From contig MGQK01000033.1 in the NCBI GenBank assembly GCA_001797815.1, forward strand, positions 22,840 to 45,788: a DNA stretch of 22,949 nt. The letters are read 5' to 3'. A model generated the notes under the pieces. That model saw only the letters and a list, made by a program, of their open reading frames with translations. It searched no databases and was not told where the DNA came from. Positions 5,971 to 21,437 of the stretch are shown in pieces; the stretch's first letter is position 1; each line of letters begins with the position of its first letter. This DNA is from Deltaproteobacteria bacterium RBG_13_61_14. Its GTDB lineage: Bacteria; RBG-13-61-14. The translations under genes and the position numbers were made by a program.

Positions 5971-7140
5971 TTATCCCTCCTGGATCATCTGGGCGAGGAT
6001 CGCCCGCAACTCCCGGGGCGCTCCGCCCGCGCTCTTCAGCACCGAGACATCGCGCAGCCGCTTTTCCATGCGGTAGTCCTCCATGTAACCGTATCCGCCG
6101 AAGATCTGGAGGCAGTCGGTGACCGCGCCGGCCGCGGCGGGCATGATGATGAGCTTGGCCCGGACCGCCTCCCGGAACCGGACTTCGGCGTGGCCTTCGG
6201 CTTGGCAAGCGCGGGAAACGCCGGCCTGGCAGGCGGCGATGCGGGCGTCGGATTCGGCCAGCAGGGTTTGCATGGCCGGGTGGGCGATGATCAAGTCCCC
6301 GCCCTGGTAGCGCTCGCCGGCATACTGCCGGGCCGAGGCCAGGGCCCCGCGGGCGATGCCGGCGGCGATGGCCGAGAGTCCGATCAGGTTGAGGCGAAGC
6401 TGCTCGAGCACCGCCTCGCGGTTCGGGACCTGGAAGCGGAGCAGAAGGCTGCGGTCGAGCTTGACCCGGTCGAAGCGCAGGTGCTCTAGACCGGCCGCGC
6501 GCAGACCGGCGCGGGCGCCGGCGTTACGGGCTTGCAGGCCCTTGGCATCGGCCGGGACCAGGAAGCAGGTCCAGTCGCCGTTGGCGGCGGACCGGGCGAA
6601 GACGAGATAAGCTTCGGGCCGGCCGGCGCTGTAAACAAAGGTCTTTTCACCCGAGAGCTCGAAGCCGTCCCCCGCCTCGCGGGCCACGGTCTCGACCGCC
6701 GCCGGCGCCGCCTGAAGCGGCTCGCGCAGGGTGAAGAGGCCCGGAATGCCGAAGGCTTCGGAAAAAGCCGCGGCGACATTCTCCGGCGCGCTCGGCGGAT
6801 TCTCCGCCCGGAGCAAGGGCAAGGTCCCCATGCCCTGGGCGTGGAAGCACATGGCCACCCCGCCGCAAACCACGGCCAGTTCTTCGAGCAGCATGGCCGA
6901 GACCGCAGGTCCGTGGGTCAGGGTCTGGCTGCCCCAGATGCCGGTCTCGCGTCCCGCGGCCTCGGGCCGGGGCGAGGCGAGCAGACCGGCCTCTTGGCCT
7001 TGGTGGAGGATGGCCGGGAGCATTTCCAAATTACCGTCCGGAGATTCATGGGCCAGCATCGGCGCGATGGTTTTTTTGGCAAACGAGGCGGCCATCTCCC
7101 GGAAAGCGGCCAGTTCCTCCCGGCTCAGTTGTTCGCTCAT
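5971..7140 (-). CDS. Acyl-CoA dehydrogenase paralogue with degenerate active site
   Basis: The 389-residue protein has the acyl-CoA dehydrogenase fold, including the mid-domain GDGFELSGEKTFVYSAG and the C-terminal FGGYGYMEDYRMEKRLRD. Two key places are altered. The usual TEPxAGSD segment reads REPLQAAPA (from residue 139). The catalytic YEGT motif reads SAGGAPREL, with Gly372 where Glu belongs. The alternative base position of isovaleryl-CoA dehydrogenase, one turn before the AIAAGIARGAL segment, holds Asn and the nearby conserved Arg is Leu. So it probably does not dehydrogenate on its own. It ends one base before the intact paralogue, and AAGGAG precedes its ATG. Heteromeric acyl-CoA dehydrogenases such as mycobacterial FadE26-FadE27 combine one active and one inactive chain, which is the likely arrangement here. 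Confidence 0.85.
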   Translation of the reverse strand: MSEQLSREELAAFREMAASFAKKTIAPMLAHESPDGNLEMLPAILHQGQEAGLLASPRPEAAGRETGIWGSQTLTHGPAVSAMLLEELAVVCGGVAMCFHAQGMGTLPLLRAENPPSAPENVAAAFSEAFGIPGLFTLREPLQAAPAAVETVAREAGDGFELSGEKTFVYSAGRPEAYLVFARSAANGDWTCFLVPADAKGLQARNAGARAGLRAAGLEHLRFDRVKLDRSLLLRFQVPNREAVLEQLRLNLIGLSAIAAGIARGALASARQYAGERYQGGDLIIAHPAMQTLLAESDARIAACQAGVSRACQAEGHAEVRFREAVRAKLIIMPAAAGAVTDCLQIFGGYGYMEDYRMEKRLRDVSVLKSAGGAPRELRAILAQMIQEG

Positions 7141-7234
7141 TTTAGTAGCGCTCCTTGGTTAGAGTTAGGATTTACGGTAGCAGACTTATTGAGCCAATCC
7201 AACCGCCTCTCCCCAAAAGCGAAGGAGGCTCGGC

Positions 7235-9205
7235 CTACTCCTCATATTCGCCCTCTTCACTCGTGGCGTACTCCGGAAACCATTTCTTTTCATCCGCCTC
7301 TTTTCCCAACTCGGTTTGGGAACAGCGCTTGACCAGGGCTTTGTAATAGCGGTCAGCGGCAGCGGGGTCTTTGTATTTAAGCCATGAGCCGGCGTCGCAG
7401 AGCCGGGCCGCGGTTTCGTCCGACTGGTCGGGCATGAGCTGGACCGCGGCCCAGGCATGGTCGGCCGCGAGGTAGCGCCAGTAGCGGCGGTCTTCGACGT
7501 GCTCGGCCGGCGGGCCGGTGTCCGACCCGGGTGGATTGCCGTTGCCGAACAACTCCTCACCTTGTTGGCGCGCGATCTCGAATGCTTTCCAGAAAGACTC
7601 GGCCCGCTCCGCCGCCGGAAGCTTGGAATTGGCGCCGGTGCGGATGGCTGCAATATAGTCATCGAGTGCCTTCTGCAATTCCTCCGGATAGTAAAGCCGA
7701 GCGTCTTTCCAATAACCTTTTCGGGTCAGGCGTTGGGCCAAAAGGCGTGATATCATCCCATCTCCGGGCCCGTGGCTGTCCACATAGGCCTTGAGCTCGT
7801 CGACGCTAAAGTTCTCCTGGGCGACCGTCATCGCCTCCGGCCAATACGCCCCTTGGAGGAGCGCATCCAACGCTTCGGGGTAATGTTTGAGGTTGAATTG
7901 GAGGATACCCAGTTCTCCCCGGATCCGATCCGGTTCTCCAACTCTCTGGACCGGCACGATATAGTAGACATTCTCTTCGTAGTCGGGCCGGCTGTCCTCC
8001 AGGCTGTTTTGAGGCGAGTTCTTCGTCATCAGTCCGGAGAGGATTTGCGCGGCCTCTTCCAGCTTTCCTGCCCTGGTGAAAAGTTTGGCTTGCAGGTAAC
8101 GGGCGATAATCGCATCGGCCGGCGCCCGGTCAATCCAGCGCTGGGCCAGGTCGAATTGGCCGCGGTTGTAAGTCACCCAGGCCAGGCGGTCCGCGCCGGG
8201 TATGTCCTTGATCGCCACGCTCTCCGCCGCTTCCAGCCAGGCCTTGATCTCGTCTTCGACAATCGTCCAGTTGGGACCGCAGCAACAATCCGAGAGAATG
8301 CAGGCGTTGATCACCTGGCGCGAAATCGGATCGGCCGCGGCCTTGCGGATGGCCTCGGGTCCCGCGTTGAAAATCAGCCGCACGGTGATCTGCAGCGAGC
8401 GGGCCGCCCGCCACTCGAACGCGGCATACTGGGTCAGGTAAAGTTTCATGGCCTCGTTGAACTGGCCGCGATCCAGCGCGGCCCGGGCTTGCTCACCGTA
8501 GCTGGCTACGCGGAGGCCCAGCGAGTCCGCGTAGCCGGATTCGGCCAGTGATTGCACTTTCTGATACCACTCCTGCGCCTTGATTGGGTCCCTGCCCATC
8601 CATGAGCGACCGAGCATATACGCCGCCCAGGTGGACCGGTAATGGCGCTTTTCCTCGGGCAGTTTCAAGAGCTTTTCCCAGGCCTCGCCGGCCTTTTCCG
8701 CCTCGCCCCGGTAAAAGGCGATCGCGCCCTGAAAGTACAGGGAGAACTCGGGCGGCAGATTTTCCGAGACCTCCAGCGCTTCGAGCTCTGGCGCCGGTGC
8801 TCCCTCGGGGTGTCTCTCGGTCCAGTTGCGGAGGGCGGACTGGTAGCGGTTCAAGGCCTCGCGCAAGACTTTCTGCTTGGCCAGGAGTTCCTTTTGCTGG
8901 TCCTCGGGAACGGCCATTTTCTTCAGCGCTTCCCCCAGCTCTTTGATGTCGGCCTGATCGGTGTTAAGGACCTCCGGGGGGCTCCATTTAGACTCCCCTA
9001 GCCGGAATTTGGGAGTGACCAGGGAGGTGATCTGGTCAATCTCCTCTCGAAATCGGGCCCGGGGCGCGGCCACGACATCGTCCACGCCTTCCAATTTCAG
9101 CTCCACCGGCAACGGCGGCGCACACGCATAGGAAAGATGCGAAATCAGCATCGCGGCCACGGCGGCTCCGGCCAGGCAGAGCTTAAGGGCTGAGCGGTGA
9201 GACAT
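7235..9205 (-). CDS. Exported TPR-like protein paired with DUF3142
   Basis: I chose the ATG at 9205 (656 residues) because GGAGGTGG stands directly upstream and a signal peptide follows at once; a longer frame from 9280 would lie wholly inside the preceding gene. Residues 1-28 form a signal sequence ending LSYAC; the Cys at 28 could be a lipoprotein attachment site, though the lipobox is imperfect. The rest is helical with TPR-like units, for example around 195-220, 245-262 and further on (GKLEEAAQILSGL, HYPEALDALLQGAYW). An unusual CCCGP segment is at 307-311. The start overlaps the DUF3142 gene by 23 bases. Function is unknown; a periplasmic scaffold or partner of the DUF3142 protein is inferred from coupling alone. 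Confidence 0.7.
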   Translation of the reverse strand: MSHRSALKLCLAGAAVAAMLISHLSYACAPPLPVELKLEGVDDVVAAPRARFREEIDQITSLVTPKFRLGESKWSPPEVLNTDQADIKELGEALKKMAVPEDQQKELLAKQKVLREALNRYQSALRNWTERHPEGAPAPELEALEVSENLPPEFSLYFQGAIAFYRGEAEKAGEAWEKLLKLPEEKRHYRSTWAAYMLGRSWMGRDPIKAQEWYQKVQSLAESGYADSLGLRVASYGEQARAALDRGQFNEAMKLYLTQYAAFEWRAARSLQITVRLIFNAGPEAIRKAAADPISRQVINACILSDCCCGPNWTIVEDEIKAWLEAAESVAIKDIPGADRLAWVTYNRGQFDLAQRWIDRAPADAIIARYLQAKLFTRAGKLEEAAQILSGLMTKNSPQNSLEDSRPDYEENVYYIVPVQRVGEPDRIRGELGILQFNLKHYPEALDALLQGAYWPEAMTVAQENFSVDELKAYVDSHGPGDGMISRLLAQRLTRKGYWKDARLYYPEELQKALDDYIAAIRTGANSKLPAAERAESFWKAFEIARQQGEELFGNGNPPGSDTGPPAEHVEDRRYWRYLAADHAWAAVQLMPDQSDETAARLCDAGSWLKYKDPAAADRYYKALVKRCSQTELGKEADEKKWFPEYATSEEGEYEE

Positions 9206-10475
9206 GCAATTCCACCTCCGTCTCTCGGTCAAAACGTAGCCAGCCGATTGGCTGTCTCTGGTCCGGACCGATTCGGGCAACGGTCGAGCCGGGGATACCG
9301 CGCAAGGCGACCCGGCTCGGCCCTCGCTCGATCAGCCGAAACCCGCTTAGGGCGTCGCCCGCTAAGAGCCGGGCGTTTTGCCAGCTTACCAGAACCTCAA
9401 CTGGAGTCAAAGCCTCGGTCTCACCCTTGTTGACCAAGTCAATATCCACCAGGCCGGGCTCAATGCTTCGCGTCTCGGCCCGGAGTAGCTCGCGCGGCGG
9501 CCGACCGTCCATGACCGCGGCCAGGGTCGGCCAGGGCCAGTTCAGCCGGTCCGAGGGTGTGGGCAGCCGATACCAGATAATGCCCGTCAATTCCTCCGGC
9601 CGGTCCGCGGCCAGCTTGCGGACCAGGGCGGCCATCTGACCCGGGTCCGACTCCACCCTGCGGACCTCGGCCCCGTGCGGCCAGGCCAGGGCCGGGCCCT
9701 CTGCGGAAAAACCGATATATTTTCCCTGTCGGTCGAAAGCCACGAGATAGCTGTAGGTCGGGAGCGCCAGCCGAAAGGGCTTACCGAAGCGCGCCGCTTC
9801 TTTGACCCACTTCCAAGTAACGCTTGGATCGCACAAGGTCAAGGATGTATCCGAATTCTTGGGCGGGGAGAACCAGTGGACCTGGAGCACGTAGCCACCC
9901 GCGGCCTCGATCAGATCTTGAAACTCCCTTTGGTGAAGCCAACTGGGCAAGACCGTAATGGTCACCGGCACCGGCGCGACCTTTGAGCGGATGGCTTCCA
10001 TCCACCAGCGGTAGCCTGAAAGCTTGGACTCGGCGCAGTCGAAGTCGAGTTGAAGTTCCTGGACATCGAGTTGCGCTTCCCGGGCCTCCGCGATGAGCGA
10101 CGCGGCCAGGTCGGTTAACATGGCCAGGGGCTCTCCCTCTTTATCGAACGGCCCCGCATACGCGCCGATGCGGAGCGCCAAGCCGACCGGGATACCGGCC
10201 GAGCGCAGCGCTTCGTAGTCTATCGGGATGCGGACAATAGTCGATTGATGATTCTGCCATGAAACTTCTGCGGCCAGGACCACCATCCCGGAAAGCTTAG
10301 GCGTCGCGGCCTGAACCGCCTGACGGACATTATCGTTCCAGGCCCTTTGCCAGAGGTAAGCTTGCTGCGGTAGGGGTTTTTGCGCGCGGGGGTAGAGGCG
10401 GAGGCCAATCCTCCAACCCAGCGCGATGGCAAGAAAGGCGAGCACAACGAGCGGAATGGCAAGGAGACGCTTCAT
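9183..10475 (-). CDS. DUF3142-containing protein
   Basis: The product has 430 residues with a membrane anchor or signal segment at about 4-20. It then shows the features I associate with DUF3142: a YLWQRAWNDNVRQAV segment near residue 40, LQLDFDC at 141-147 followed by a Ser/Tyr/Trp-rich stretch (KLSGYRWWMEAIR), and VTITVLPSWL. The acidic LDFD end of a strand suggests a TIM-barrel-like or glycosidase-related fold, with a C-terminal beta-rich part from about 320. It overlaps the following TPR-like gene by 23 bases, so the two are translationally linked. The biochemical role of DUF3142 is not known to me. The ATG at 10475 is preceded by AGGAAG at an acceptable though long distance. Confidence 0.75.
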   Translation of the reverse strand: MKRLLAIPLVVLAFLAIALGWRIGLRLYPRAQKPLPQQAYLWQRAWNDNVRQAVQAATPKLSGMVVLAAEVSWQNHQSTIVRIPIDYEALRSAGIPVGLALRIGAYAGPFDKEGEPLAMLTDLAASLIAEAREAQLDVQELQLDFDCAESKLSGYRWWMEAIRSKVAPVPVTITVLPSWLHQREFQDLIEAAGGYVLQVHWFSPPKNSDTSLTLCDPSVTWKWVKEAARFGKPFRLALPTYSYLVAFDRQGKYIGFSAEGPALAWPHGAEVRRVESDPGQMAALVRKLAADRPEELTGIIWYRLPTPSDRLNWPWPTLAAVMDGRPPRELLRAETRSIEPGLVDIDLVNKGETEALTPVEVLVSWQNARLLAGDALSGFRLIERGPSRVALRGIPGSTVARIGPDQRQPIGWLRFDRETEVELHVSPLSP

Positions 10476-16415: not shown

Positions 16416-17393
16416 TCAATACGCCGGCCAGGCGATGCAGTAGAGGTGCTTGCCCCCTTTTTGGAGCGGCCCTTTCAAGTAGGCCTGCAATTCCTTGTCC
16501 GTGAACCGCTGGGTCACTTTTTCGACCGGCGGCAGCTTGCCCACCGGCCACTTCTGCATAATGTCATGGAACAGTTTCTCCAGGTAATCGAGCAGCGCCT
16601 CGACCCCCGGCATCGCCTTGCTCGCCTTGGCCCGCGTGGACTTGCCCACGCAGCCCTCCGGGAACTGGGCGATCTCGATCGGCCCGAGCCCCGCGTGCGC
16701 ATACCAGGGGATGGGGAGCTGGTAAAGGTTCCCCGCCTTGTCCACGTGGCCCGGAGGCATAAACCCGGTCGGCTCGGTGTCCACCGCGTCCTTCATCTTG
16801 ATCATCTCCGGGAAGAGCGCGAGCGAGAAGCTGGTCTCCACCTCGTCGCCGTGGACAAAAGCCGTGTCAAACGGGCCGCCGTGAGCCTTGTCCTTGCAAA
16901 ACTGGGGGATGGCATAATACCAGTTCAGGTTCACGAACACGCCCGGCACCTGGAAACGCTTGGTGAAACGGTGGATGGCGGTGGGGATCACGTATTCCTG
17001 GCCGTGGCCGTTCAAGAGAATCTGCTTGCGGAAGCCCGCATTCCAGAAACCCGCCATCACTTGTGAAAGATTGGCGGTGAAGGTCTCCTCGTCAATCGGG
17101 ATGGTGCCCGGCATGCCGATATGGTGATACGGGTGCGAGCCATACCAGATCGGCTGGGCCACGGTGCAGCCCACCTTCTTGGCCACCGCCTCGGCCATGC
17201 GCGTCACTAAAAAGGTATCCTCCCCGTAGCAGGCGTGCGGCCCGTGCGCCTCGGTCGAGCCTACCGGGATGATAATCAGGTCACATTTCTTCAGCCGCGC
17301 CGCCGCCTCTTTCATGGTCATGTTCTGGAAATACACCCCGCTCGCCCGGTCCAAATGACCGCCCTTGGGCGGAAGTTTCCATTTTTTCGCCAT
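16416..17393 (-). CDS. Creatininase-family hydrolase, similar to 3-dehydro-scyllo-inosose hydrolase
   Basis: The start at 17393 is set by AAGGAG eight bases upstream (325 residues); an upstream in-frame ATG at 17429 has no such site. The creatininase metal-binding segment GSTEAHGPHACYGED is at 45-59 (Glu48, His50, Asp59), followed by LLNGHGQE near 127 and HGDEVETS at 181-188. The overall pattern (GGHLDRASGVYFQNMTMKEA at the start, DKAGNL..PIPWY and a terminus close to YCIAWPAY) matches my memory of proteins annotated as 3-dehydro-scyllo-inosose hydrolase, the ring-opening step of the Thermotoga-type inositol pathway (IolN). The family is certain; the substrate is inferred. It is separated from the dehydrogenase/isomerase genes by the AT-rich cassette, but all share the minus strand. 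Confidence 0.8.
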   Translation of the reverse strand: MAKKWKLPPKGGHLDRASGVYFQNMTMKEAAARLKKCDLIIIPVGSTEAHGPHACYGEDTFLVTRMAEAVAKKVGCTVAQPIWYGSHPYHHIGMPGTIPIDEETFTANLSQVMAGFWNAGFRKQILLNGHGQEYVIPTAIHRFTKRFQVPGVFVNLNWYYAIPQFCKDKAHGGPFDTAFVHGDEVETSFSLALFPEMIKMKDAVDTEPTGFMPPGHVDKAGNLYQLPIPWYAHAGLGPIEIAQFPEGCVGKSTRAKASKAMPGVEALLDYLEKLFHDIMQKWPVGKLPPVEKVTQRFTDKELQAYLKGPLQKGGKHLYCIAWPAY

Positions 17394-17500
17394 GATCTTC
17401 ACTCCTTTCAAAATCATAAACTTAAGCAATCACCTAAAACTTAGGATATAGCACTTCAAATAAGATCATTGCTAATTTTAGAGGGAGGCTAAAATAATAA

Positions 17501-18058
17501 TTAATCAATATGAATTTCCATCTGATTGCACGAAAGCAAACCGTTTGACAAAGCGGTTTTCTCAAGATCCTCATTCCAACTATAAGGAATTGAATTAAAA
17601 CCATTTGTTAATGCGTCATCAAGCACCTCGACGAGCCTCGAAATACGATGCTTTCTCTTGGAAATTAATTCTCTTTGATTAATCATAATATTAAGCGTCC
17701 TGCCGCGAAGTGATTCAAGGAGAATATAGGGGTGATCCTTAAATTTTAATAGATAAAATTGTAATAGATACTTGACTTGGCATCGTGCTGAGCGAGAAAA
17801 TATGGGTCCATGTTCAATTTCTGCAGTTAGGGGTTCAAGCTGATAAGATTTAATTTTTCGGAGCGCTGGAATCTCTTCTAACAATTCACGCTTAGCAGTT
17901 TTTTTCCTGTTACCTCTATCTTGTGGCCCTTCATGCCCACCAATGAAATTAAGGTCTTTCCAGCGAGAATCTCGTCGCATAATGAACCATTCTTCATTTG
18001 ATATTTTAAGCTTGATTATTACAAAGGTGCATTTAGAAATCTTCGGTTGATTACTCAT
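17501..18058 (-). CDS. Nudix-fold hydrolase of the cassette
   Basis: The protein has 185 residues. A Nudix box is recognisable from GGH (40-42) to RELLEE (57-62), with the metal-binding Glu58, Glu61 and Glu62 present. The spacing between the first Gly and Arg57 is two residues longer than the canonical GX5EX7REUXEE, so it belongs to a variant group; the GGH opening recalls COG4112-type MutT-like phosphoesterases. It presumably cleaves a nucleoside-diphosphate-linked or phosphate substrate, which is unknown. Its ATG overlaps the stop of the upstream kinase-Nudix gene by four bases, with GGAGG upstream inside that gene, so the two proteins are made together. Codon use is AT-rich like its partner and unlike the host genes. 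Confidence 0.65.
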   Translation of the reverse strand: MSNQPKISKCTFVIIKLKISNEEWFIMRRDSRWKDLNFIGGHEGPQDRGNRKKTAKRELLEEIPALRKIKSYQLEPLTAEIEHGPIFSRSARCQVKYLLQFYLLKFKDHPYILLESLRGRTLNIMINQRELISKRKHRISRLVEVLDDALTNGFNSIPYSWNEDLEKTALSNGLLSCNQMEIHID

Positions 18059-19374
18059 TTATATCCTCCAACATTTTCTATGATTGTTCGGGACCAGCTT
18101 TCTAGACCTAGTTTTTCCTGATTTGATCTAATCTCTTTCATTTCATCAAAATTGCCAATAAGACCGTGGCCTCTTCTTTTCCTGAATTCCCTATTGATAA
18201 AATCCATTGCGGTTAAAGGATTGCCAATGTTGATTTCATATATTACACCTAAGTGTTGATTACTGCTAGGAAGTTCACGATCCCAGCAAAAGCCAAGGTG
18301 TTTGACAGGGAATACGCGACTCAGAAATAAATACCTGGCTATATGATCCTGTAAGGTATTTTTAATGATTTCAATAGTGCCAACTCCCTCCCGCTTGGTG
18401 ACATGACAGCCCTGCCATATGGTGGTCTTTCCATACAGTCTATACTTGGGATCCATCTCTTTTCTTTGGAATAAAAGTACTTTTCCCTCATATTTGAGAA
18501 TTCCGCAGGGAATAATTTGAACGTAGTCAGGATTGGCTTCGGCTATCTCTCTTCTCATGAAGCTTCCATATGTGGCGAGGCAGCTATTTATATTATAAAC
18601 TTTATCCTTATCAAATGCTCCGCCACCATTTAATGGCAAAGTCTCAATTTCCTGCCTCGGAACTACTAGAATCTCTGGGTTAAGAAAGCCTTCTAAGCAT
18701 TCGAGCACCTTTTTGGCAAGATCAATATTGGATTGTCTAAGTTGATGGCCAGTTGTTTGATGAGAAATAACAGCGTAAAATTTGGATCCGTAACGCTTAA
18801 GTGCTTGCTGAACGGACTCGGTTATCGCTAATAACATTGCGGGAGTCATTATAGTTCCGAGTTTTTGAGTAATATGTTGGCCATTTTCTCTTGCGATGGC
18901 TTCTTCAGAGGATACACTCATTACAACTGCCAAATCTATGAGAGATCGCCAACGTTCGAGTAACAAAAACGCCTCAATTGTTCTAGCTTCATCCGCAGTT
19001 ATTTCACCACGATTTTCTTGTAGCGTCATCCATACCAAAGTATCGAATATACCACGATCAATGATGATTATATCCGTTTCAGTTTCAACTTTCGATAGCA
19101 ATTCAGCCAACATTGAAGCAGCGCACCAAGTATTGAAGAAAAGATGCCCTTTCATCGGGATAGGACAAACCGCCGCGCGCTCAGTAAGGACGTGGACCCT
19201 AAATCCGTACCGAGATAAAAAGTGCCGAATCGCTTCGCTCGATGTGCTTTTACCAGACTTAGGTGTGCCGGCAAACTCAATTACAAACGACCGAGGCGCA
19301 TAAATGAGAAGTGATCGAAGTCTTTCGGCGAGTGCCTCTAAAGATTTCACTTCCTGTTCAACATCCATATTCAT
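18055..19374 (-). CDS. P-loop nucleotide-kinase-like domain fused to a degenerate Nudix-fold domain
   Basis: The product has 439 residues. The N-terminal half (about 28-235) is a P-loop kinase: Walker A GTPKSGKS at 36-43 and IIIIDRGIFD at 103-111, where the DRG triplet resembles the DR(S/G) motif of thymidylate and deoxynucleoside kinases. The C-terminal half (about 283-420) resembles a Nudix fold, including GILKYEGKVLLFQRKE and IWQGCHVTKREG. Placed against the neighbouring Nudix protein at identical spacing, its catalytic box reads NTLQDH where the partner has RELLEE, so hydrolase activity is probably lost and the domain may sense a ligand. AGGAGG lies 14 bases before the ATG, farther than usual. 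What the kinase phosphorylates is unknown. Confidence 0.65.
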   Translation of the reverse strand: MNMDVEQEVKSLEALAERLRSLLIYAPRSFVIEFAGTPKSGKSTSSEAIRHFLSRYGFRVHVLTERAAVCPIPMKGHLFFNTWCAASMLAELLSKVETETDIIIIDRGIFDTLVWMTLQENRGEITADEARTIEAFLLLERWRSLIDLAVVMSVSSEEAIARENGQHITQKLGTIMTPAMLLAITESVQQALKRYGSKFYAVISHQTTGHQLRQSNIDLAKKVLECLEGFLNPEILVVPRQEIETLPLNGGGAFDKDKVYNINSCLATYGSFMRREIAEANPDYVQIIPCGILKYEGKVLLFQRKEMDPKYRLYGKTTIWQGCHVTKREGVGTIEIIKNTLQDHIARYLFLSRVFPVKHLGFCWDRELPSSNQHLGVIYEINIGNPLTAMDFINREFRKRRGHGLIGNFDEMKEIRSNQEKLGLESWSRTIIENVGGYK

Positions 19375-19402
19375 GGCAGCTTGAGCTTCCTCCTAGTCCT
19401 TA

Positions 19403-19431
19403 ATGTTAGCATCTAAAACAGATACAAGCAA
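19403..19431 (-). promoter_or_regulatory. Candidate promoter of the cassette
   Basis: On the minus strand TTGCTT (19431-19426), a 17-base spacer and TAACAT (19408-19403) preceded by TGC form an extended -10 promoter of modest quality, 28 bases before the kinase-Nudix start. It would let the cassette be expressed independently of the dehydrogenase gene upstream. Confidence 0.35.
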
Positions 19432-19459
19432 TGACAACCTTTGCTTTGCCCATCGGTTG

Positions 19460-20533
19460 CTAGGGATGAATCACCACTTTGATCGCGCCGCCTTCGCGGC
19501 CGACAAAGGTTTTGATCCCTTGGTTGATTTCTCGCAACGGGAACCGGTGCGTGATCAGCGGGCCGGCTTTGACCCGGCCGTCGGCCAAGAGCGGCAGCAC
19601 CCTTCTCAGGCTCCAGTCGCCCTCGGCCTTGCCCCCGGCCAGGGTCATATTCCACTGCACCACCTTGTTCAGGTTGATCGGGATGTCGCCCTGGTAAATC
19701 CCGATCAAGGCCACCCGGCCGTTCTTGCGGGTGAACTCCACCGCGTCCTTGGCGGCTTCAGCCGTGCCCGCGCATTCGATGACCAGGTCCGCGCCCACGC
19801 CGTTCGTGAGACTAAAGACCTCTTTCACCACATCCTGCTTCTTGATGTTGATGGTTATATCCGCCGCGCGCAGTTCCACGCCCAGGTCCAGCCGCTCCTG
19901 CCGGGTGCCGGTCAGGATCACCCGGCCGGCGCCCTCGGCCTTGACCAGTTGAGCAGCCATCAGCCCGATGGGCCCGGGGCCGGAGACGACCACGGTCTCG
20001 CCCACCCGCACGCCGCCGATCCGGGTGATGCCGTATTGGGCGGTGCCGGCGGTGGTGATCAAGGTGGCCTCGTCAAAGGAGAGCGACTCGGGGATGCGGT
20101 GGAGCGTGTTGACGTGGTTGACCGCATATTCGGCATAGCCGCCGTTGACGGTGAAGCCGTAGTGGCGGTGGCCGGCGGCCAGGTTGCCGTAGTTGAGGCA
20201 GGTGGTGTAGAAGCCCCGGATGCAGTTTTCACAATGGCCGCAGCCCTTGTGCGGCTCGACCGCCACCCGGTCTCCCACCTGGTAATCCGCGATGCCTTCG
20301 CCCAAAGCGACAATCGTTCCTGCATACTCGTGGCCGGGGATATACTGGCCAAAGGGCGGGTTGTTCGGCCAGCCGTGAGCCACGATCTTGGGGTCGGTCC
20401 CGCAGATGGCGCAGGCCTGGACCCGGATCAAGACCTCGTCCGGGCCCGGCCGCGGCACCGGCATCTCGGTTACCCGCAGGTCATTGTAACCGAACATCAC
20501 CGCGGCTTGCATGCGATCAGGGATTTTTGCCAT
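19460..20533 (-). CDS. Zinc-dependent alcohol/polyol dehydrogenase (MDR family)
   Basis: I take the ATG at 20533 (357 residues) because AAGG stands eight bases upstream; longer frames run through the palindrome at 20554. Catalytic zinc ligands are Cys44 (AICGTD) and His68-Glu69 (GHEYAG). The structural zinc cysteines are 98, 101, 104 and 112, and the NAD(P) site is GPGPIG at about 185-190. This is a medium-chain dehydrogenase close to the sorbitol/threonine dehydrogenase group, oxidising a secondary alcohol of a sugar or cyclitol. It is the third gene of a minus-strand set with another dehydrogenase and an isomerase, so a catabolic step such as oxidation of inositol or an inosose is plausible but not proven. 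Confidence 0.88.
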   Translation of the reverse strand: MAKIPDRMQAAVMFGYNDLRVTEMPVPRPGPDEVLIRVQACAICGTDPKIVAHGWPNNPPFGQYIPGHEYAGTIVALGEGIADYQVGDRVAVEPHKGCGHCENCIRGFYTTCLNYGNLAAGHRHYGFTVNGGYAEYAVNHVNTLHRIPESLSFDEATLITTAGTAQYGITRIGGVRVGETVVVSGPGPIGLMAAQLVKAEGAGRVILTGTRQERLDLGVELRAADITINIKKQDVVKEVFSLTNGVGADLVIECAGTAEAAKDAVEFTRKNGRVALIGIYQGDIPINLNKVVQWNMTLAGGKAEGDWSLRRVLPLLADGRVKAGPLITHRFPLREINQGIKTFVGREGGAIKVVIHP

Positions 20534-20553
20534 TCTCATCGCCTTGATTGATC

Positions 20554-20581
20554 GTAGGGGCACGGCATGCCGTGCCCCTAC
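20554..20581. repeat. Perfect 28-bp palindrome
   Basis: GTAGGGGCACGGCA (20554-20567) is followed at once by its exact reverse complement (20568-20581). It occupies most of the 52-bp gap between the dehydrogenase and isomerase genes. The GTAGGGGC...GCCCCTAC outline links it to the hairpin at 16371 and, from memory, to a palindrome type found in many copies in environmental and cyanobacterial genomes. Confidence 0.75.
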
Positions 20582-20585
20582 CGTG

Positions 20586-21437
20586 TCATTCAATTTTGAT
20601 GCCCAAATCCTTGAGCAATTGTTTACTCCAGGCCAGACTTTCAATGATCATCTTCTGCGACTCCTCGGCCTCTTCCCAGCCCTCGGTCTCATACGAAAGC
20701 ACGCCGTCGTAACCCGCCTGACGCAGAATCTCGACTTCTTCCTTGAGCTTCACCTCGCCCCGGCCCAGGATGACCGCATTGCGGCCGACCACGTCCTTGC
20801 AATGCACGTGCCGCACCTTGCCCGCCACCGGCCTAAGCACGGCCAGCTCGTCGCCCCGCTCCGCCTGGTCAAGCTTCCACTCGAAGCCCTTGTGCGTGGT
20901 GCCCACGTAATCGCCCCGGTGGGGATTGGCAGTATCGAAGTTGACGCCGAGCCAAGGCGAGGGCGCGAGCGCGAGGATCTTCGAGAGTCCTCCCGGCGAA
21001 AGCGACAGGGAACCGTGCGGCTCTATGGCCAGATAAACTTTGCACTTCTCCGCCGTTTGCGCCAGCCGCTCGAGTTTGGGTTTCAAAATGTTCAACGCCT
21101 CGGCCTCGCTCATGCCGGCCGGCAATCGGCCCTCGCCGGTCGCGACCACCGGCACCCCGGCCGCGGCCGCGAACTCCAGGGAATGCCGCAGGTCGTCCTC
21201 CGCGGACGATTCGGAGATCAACTCCCGGTGCGAGCCGATGCAGGAGATGGCGAAGAGGCCATGGCCCAACACCCGGTCGCGGAACTGGATCGGGTCGTGC
21301 CGGTCGGTGCGCACGTGGTCGCACCAGGAAAGGTTGGCCTCGACCTCCACGTATTTATAGCCGGCGCGGGCGATCCGCTCCAGGGCCACATCCAAACTGT
21401 ATTTCCGAAACGCAACGGTATTGCACCCGATCTTCAT
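20586..21437 (-). CDS. Sugar phosphate isomerase/epimerase family protein (TIM barrel)
   Basis: The 283-residue protein belongs to the AP-endonuclease-2-like TIM-barrel family. Expected metal ligands are visible at the strand ends: Glu139 (AIEPHG), Asp168 (NFDTANPH), the HVH of RHVHCKD (210-212) and Glu250 (SYETEG). Members interconvert keto sugars or dehydrate inosose; in the Thermotoga inositol route a member of this family (IolO) epimerises 5-keto-L-gluconate. The present protein is not an obvious close copy of that enzyme. It stands between two Zn-dehydrogenases on the same strand. The stretch just before its ATG is a TGAAGGG-type repeat, which supplies the GAAGG ribosome binding site. 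Confidence 0.85.
   Translation of the reverse strand: MKIGCNTVAFRKYSLDVALERIARAGYKYVEVEANLSWCDHVRTDRHDPIQFRDRVLGHGLFAISCIGSHRELISESSAEDDLRHSLEFAAAAGVPVVATGEGRLPAGMSEAEALNILKPKLERLAQTAEKCKVYLAIEPHGSLSLSPGGLSKILALAPSPWLGVNFDTANPHRGDYVGTTHKGFEWKLDQAERGDELAVLRPVAGKVRHVHCKDVVGRNAVILGRGEVKLKEEVEILRQAGYDGVLSYETEGWEEAEESQKMIIESLAWSKQLLKDLGIKIE

Follow-up and report, generated by a model that had tools for sequence, protein, structure and literature searches.

An AT-rich kinase–Nudix cassette in a sugar-type operon: a possible, hitherto undescribed antiviral or nucleotide-signalling module

Two overlapping genes, here called A and B, form an AT-rich cassette in the 22,949-nucleotide stretch of the Deltaproteobacteria bacterium RBG_13_61_14 genome that we analysed (the window), and they belong to a rare, previously unnamed family that combines a kinase fold with a TM1382-type Nudix domain. 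In the clade of the window, and only there, the Nudix domain fused to the kinase in A has lost its active-site residues, and a second Nudix protein, B, with an intact motif is encoded directly behind it. It is possible that the cassette acts against viruses or in nucleotide signalling as a module not described before. As the best overall explanation we tentatively favour, with a little less than even confidence, an acquired accessory kinase–Nudix module with a nucleotide-based role in conflict with phages. If it is such a conflict module, it would add a kinase-plus-Nudix route to nucleotide-based bacterial immunity; if its role is metabolic instead, it would represent a family of mobile nucleotide enzymes that has no name and is absent from today's libraries of defence systems and protein families. 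In the former case, the appearance of a second Nudix protein where the fused one lost its active site is a built-in natural experiment, which gives a short list of residues for separating the making, reading and erasing of a nucleotide.

Site and composition of the cassette

Both open reading frames of the cassette (17430-19440) lie on the minus strand, and the stop codon of A overlaps the start codon of B (Table 1). This arrangement, with a GGAGG ribosome-binding site upstream of B, agrees with the first-pass annotation, which had proposed a co-translated module. The same annotation had described the two genes as far richer in AT than their neighbours, and the GC profile bears this out: the GC content is 0.400 in the cassette versus 0.622 in its flanks, and 500-bp windows across 17501-19500 range from 0.37 to 0.46, with all remaining full windows of the stretch at 0.54-0.71. 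No Rfam or tRNA features were found in the window.

The cassette interrupts a same-strand sugar-type operon with the order dehydrogenase, isomerase, dehydrogenase, A, B and creatininase-family gene. A genome from the same taxonomic order, G002, has the identical four-gene arrangement without the cassette (identities of 87, 76, 83 and 45%, respectively); there the zinc alcohol dehydrogenase gene directly precedes the creatininase gene, and about 93 bp separate the two at the empty site. The difference most likely reflects an insertion in the lineage of the window, or else a loss in G002, insertion being favoured because the cassette is AT-rich and because of its placement in the family tree. 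Its nearest relatives are found in Alphaproteobacteria, which, together with the empty site and the base composition, fits the earlier proposal that the cassette was acquired. The creatininase gene is much less similar to its counterpart than the other operon genes are, so a replacement of that flank is possible. The cassette ends showed neither a target-site duplication nor a common word longer than 7 bp, and no recognised defence gene lies near the cassette within the window.

Table 1. Features of the cassette and its flanking genes (window coordinates)
Feature	Coordinates	Strand	Evidence or remark
Creatininase-family gene, host operon, flank outside the cassette	16416..17429	-	Likely start 17393; 45% identical to G002
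Gene B, Nudix protein, 185 aa	17501..18058	-	ORF; AF2 pLDDT 85; Nudix-fold matches
Nudix box of B, GGHEGPQDRGNRKKTAKRELLEE, catalytic REXXEE intact	17873..17941	-	Conserved in 6/6 B sequences
ATGA overlap of A stop and B start, 4 bp, letters TAAATGAG	18055..18058	-	Sequence; suggests translational coupling
Gene A, P-loop kinase domain fused to degenerate TM1382-type Nudix, 439 aa	18055..19374	-	ORF, AF2, Foldseek/VIA, 33 genome relatives
TM1382-type Nudix-fold domain of A, residues 233-435, predicted inactive	18070..18678	-	VIA; box lost
Degenerate Nudix box of A, GCHVTKREGVGTIEIIKNTLQDHIARYL	18328..18411	-	36-row alignment
Kinase domain of A, residues 28-230, thymidylate-kinase / deoxynucleoside-kinase fold	18685..19293	-	VIA
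DRGIFD motif, residues 106-111	19042..19059	-	Invariant residues in 19 family members
Walker A GTPKSGKS, residues 36-43	19246..19269	-	Invariant residues in 19 family members
Zinc alcohol dehydrogenase, host sugar operon, flank outside the cassette	19460..20644	-	83% identical to G002

Kinase and Nudix domains of A and B

The AlphaFold2 model of A reached a pLDDT of 87. When its residues 29-230 were compared with thymidylate kinases by VIA, Z was about 18 and the rmsd 2.5-2.8, with 177-186 residues aligned at 13-19% identity. By sequence, no Tmk model in Pfam or NCBIfam reached significance for A, and the PHROG thymidylate kinase matches were weak (E 0.03 and 0.29); phrog_761 was reached by 9 of 19 relatives. 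The Pfam family AAA_28, which we take to cover NadR-type kinases, also matched A weakly. MeaB, FtsY and APS-kinase were rejected as identities of A, their weak matches reflecting P-loop similarity only. The residues G36, P38, K39, G41 and K42 of the Walker A motif are invariant among 19 family members, as are N81 and the residues D106, R107, G108 and D111 of the second motif. Thus A resembles thymidylate and deoxynucleoside kinases in its fold over residues 29-230, its Walker A and its DR motif, but differs from Tmk in its fused Nudix domain and in carrying DRGxFD and FNxW, which presumably stand in place of the Tmk signatures. Based on this fold, and on the association of relatives with dCMP deaminase, nrdEF and TIR genes (see below), we infer that the substrate of the kinase domain is a nucleoside or (deoxy)nucleotide.

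The C-terminal half of the A model (residues 233-439) aligned by VIA with TM1382 (PDB 3e57) at Z 20.4 and an rmsd of 2.4 over 178 residues, and phrog_8902 is its match in the sequence libraries. A shares with both the Nudix fold and the signature R..(A)E......Q; unlike them, it has lost the whole RExxEE motif, and the known members that we encountered are stand-alone, unfused proteins. In the 36-row alignment the Arg and all three Glu of RExxEE are gone from the box of A, and the His of GGH is retained. The box reads GCHV...QDHIARYL and so departs from the Nudix consensus GX5EX7REUXEEXGU, with all catalytic residues lost. Outside the box, R275, E279, Q286, H324, H374 and W427, which are conserved across the family, are retained throughout the clade of the window wherever the sequence reaches. 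The Nudix domain of A is therefore predicted to be catalytically inactive, and because its box is dead we rejected the idea that A is simply an enzyme with both kinase and Nudix hydrolase activity. For B, Foldseek returned Nudix proteins with modest TM-scores. The first-pass annotation had seen a kinase-like domain fused to a Nudix fold, plus a separate Nudix protein; structure prediction (AF2) and fold comparison confirmed both folds, but the fused Nudix domain lacks the catalytic motif, and REXXEE is kept in B alone.

Distribution of the family and loss of the Nudix box

About 40 relatives were found across many phyla, all of them rare and patchy. A search for close relatives with an alignment of the kinase domain gave 33 loci from many phyla, each confirmed by tblastn (all loci in this text are numbered with the prefix L); the alignment combined the kinase domain of the window with synthetic variants, which served solely to force degenerate motifs, and the confirmation used real sequence. 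The initial degenerate alignment search had given no confirmed match, and scanning viral contigs with the single sequences of A and of B gave none either. B in particular was not found in viral contigs, nor by tblastn against plasmids and phages. In whole-genome sampling, the full-length protein was present in 1/329, 2/347, 2/288, 1/297, 2/296 and 2/150 genomes of six groups, counts that each take in the centre genome. Weak matches to residues 5-64 in Myxococcota and rhizobia turned out to be other P-loop proteins, and L132 and L133 to be a different kinase family. In 28 of 29 loci the unit is AT-richer than its own flanks.

The A+B clade, comprising the window and L011-L016, is monophyletic (support 96/97). 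All seven of its members have a degenerate Nudix box, whereas the box is intact in 25/25 readable relatives without B; the box of L034, read apart from the 36-row table, is intact as well. In relatives without B the kinase and Nudix domains are fused (most phyla) or encoded by adjacent genes (Chloroflexota and one Actinomycetota). The first-pass annotation had proposed to check whether the pair is conserved, and it is indeed kept together within this one clade, B following A in all six members whose contig extends that far. Among whole genomes, B occurred only in this clade, in five besides that of the window and in a decayed Bradyrhizobium copy. It was absent from 17 whole genomes that carry an intact-box A, nor did it turn up in a further 114 genomes from one class of Myxococcota. 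Throughout the genomes searched, B never occurred without A, and the order was always A then B. Because box loss and the presence of B trace back to one evolutionary event rather than to repeated ones, we attach no significance test to their association. In the kinase half of A, the Nudix half of A and B, dN was 0.29-0.57 and dS was saturated, values that agree with purifying selection acting on each of the three.

Several observations accompany these loci. The decayed Bradyrhizobium copy (L042:7923-8487), which misses parts of both genes, and the intact Afipia copy (L011) adjoin the same carboxylase gene. In Afipia, a DUF4160 and DUF2442 gene pair lies directly upstream of A+B (L011:7202-7703).

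Gene neighbourhoods and candidate functions

Many of the loci come from metagenome bins, and we used a simple ORF scorer to call the neighbouring genes. In L019, L020, L039, L074, L129, L138 and the viral L009, a gene for a membrane protein lies directly upstream of the kinase gene, usually overlapping it; these partners, recognised by hydropathy, fall into several, mostly unrelated groups. In a Clostridiales bin (L043:6774-9350), a 2TM-iHKD protein, a dCMP deaminase and the kinase–Nudix protein are encoded in this order just downstream of a serine recombinase. A cluster in the Acidobacteriota genome G1141 (L130:3968-8593) encodes a CAP12-TIR-iHKD fusion, a kinase-only relative, a TIR protein, a ThsB-like TIR protein and a SLOG-patatin protein, and looks like a multi-effector conflict system with the kinase in its middle. 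The kinase relative there is divergent, with a poor P-loop and without a Nudix domain; the iHKD domains of L130 and L043 align (E 4e-9). Two units lie on IMG/VR contigs. In L138 (4286-6377), a membrane protein and a kinase–Nudix protein are encoded on the strand opposite to phage head genes, between portal-side genes and the gene for the terminase large subunit (gene names assigned by eye), and in L009 (3706-5636; the same element is in L010), genes for an HD-domain protein, a one-TM protein and a kinase-only relative stand in a row. Furthermore, L016, a member of the clade of the window, lies near AbiEi/AbiEii, L019 adjoins a type IIG restriction-modification gene, and L035 adjoins a HerA-like gene. 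A PADLOC scan of 68 neighbour proteins matched few defence families. Most Chloroflexota loci showed no context pattern.

The membrane, TIR and iHKD partners, the viral cargo and the AbiE, restriction-modification and HerA-like neighbours provide circumstantial support for a conflict role. Against it count the sugar-operon site, the nuo-operon loci described below, the lack of a PADLOC match and the fact that no membrane or TIR effector was found alongside genes of the A+B type; moreover, it is divergent family members that show the strongest conflict contexts. In the conflict role that we favour, the kinase domain would phosphorylate a nucleoside or (deoxy)nucleotide, and the Nudix domain joined to it would ancestrally have hydrolysed the phosphoanhydride so formed. 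In the clade of the window the cutting activity would have been handed over to B, the dead Nudix domain of A being retained as a ligand-binding (sensor or regulatory) domain or as a docking site for B. A would then make or read an unusual nucleotide once phage infection perturbs the pools, and B would remove that nucleotide, acting either as an off-switch or by nucleotide depletion. The membrane or TIR partner of the relatives would be the effector, and enzymes of the A+B type would act directly on the nucleotide pool. A more specific proposal, which we regard as rather doubtful, is a new nucleotide-signal immune family in which a Tmk-fold enzyme encoded by the system itself writes the signal, the fused Nudix domain erases it and membrane-pore or TIR effectors respond, the clade of the window having split reading (by the pseudo-Nudix A) from erasing (by B).

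A role in salvage or pool sanitation, in which an unusual (deoxy)nucleoside monophosphate would be the substrate charged by the kinase and the Nudix proteins would clear damaged or unwanted triphosphates, would make the cassette an accessory metabolic pair without a defence role; we consider this unlikely. Stand-alone TM1382-type Nudix genes lie beside nrdE/nrdF on a Bacillus plasmid (L003:559-6450), where a dCMP deaminase gene is also present, and in a Lysinibacillus phage (L006:1-3642). That these relatives of the Nudix domain of A lie in nucleotide-metabolism clusters that are phage or phage-like speaks for salvage, as do the coupling of the unit with a dCMP deaminase in L043 and the sugar operon around the window copy. 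The same holds for three Verrucomicrobiota (L022, L024 and L026, about 6200-10380), whose kinase–Nudix gene sits between nuoG and nuoH (names by eye). Fixed housekeeping loci, which the first-pass annotation had held to speak against its defence idea, were found solely in this one subclade. However, the family occurs extremely patchily, as AT-rich insertions at unrelated places, and has membrane, TIR and iHKD partners, and the loss of catalytic residues in A does not sit easily with an enzyme that only carries out two-step salvage.

A metabolic toxin–antitoxin or addiction pair, in which A makes a toxic nucleotide and B destroys it, thereby stabilising the carrier DNA, would suit the tight overlap and constant order of the two genes, the restriction of B, among the genomes searched, to those with A and the loss of parts of both genes from the decayed Bradyrhizobium copy. 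We nevertheless judge it improbable: no mobile-element hallmark was seen around the A+B loci, and in most relatives kinase and Nudix form a single protein, an uncommon layout for such a pair. It is very improbable that the unit is a phage-spread counter-defence that rebuilds a nucleotide cofactor, for instance by NAD salvage, since its carriage on the viral contigs L009 and L138, the AAA_28 match and the precedent of phages encoding NadR-type kinases and NadM-Nudix fusions (PMC9503650) are set against a fold comparison that favours thymidylate or deoxynucleoside kinases, the lack of an adenylyltransferase partner and the L130 relative, whose gene stands next to those of TIR-type effectors and looks like a member of their cluster.

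The conflict role was further considered against characterized systems. CBASS Cap12 and Thoeris ThsB, with their TIR, SLOG and iHKD components, resemble the L130 cluster in which a divergent kinase relative is embedded, but the window cassette carries none of those effectors. The Kongming components KomA, KomB and KomC are an adenosine deaminase, a HAM1-like protein and a SIR2 protein, and none of these types was recognised by eye in the cassette or among its neighbours in the window. Kongming (KomABC) uses a deoxynucleotide monophosphate kinase and non-canonical dITP as an immune signal (PMC12948488); unlike the cassette, which encodes its own kinase, it depends on that of the phage. It shows that such nucleotide chemistry can serve immunity, as an analogue of the cassette and not as a system to which the cassette belongs. 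In PADLOC 2.0 no model matched A or B at E values up to 1, and membership in PDC-S07 was rejected, the best family-wide PADLOC match (7e-4) covering the Nudix motif only. The earlier statement that no named system contains this pair held up in PADLOC, NCBIfam, Pfam and the open-licence literature. Stand-alone relatives of the A Nudix domain were also present in about 17% of the sampled Verrucomicrobiota genomes.
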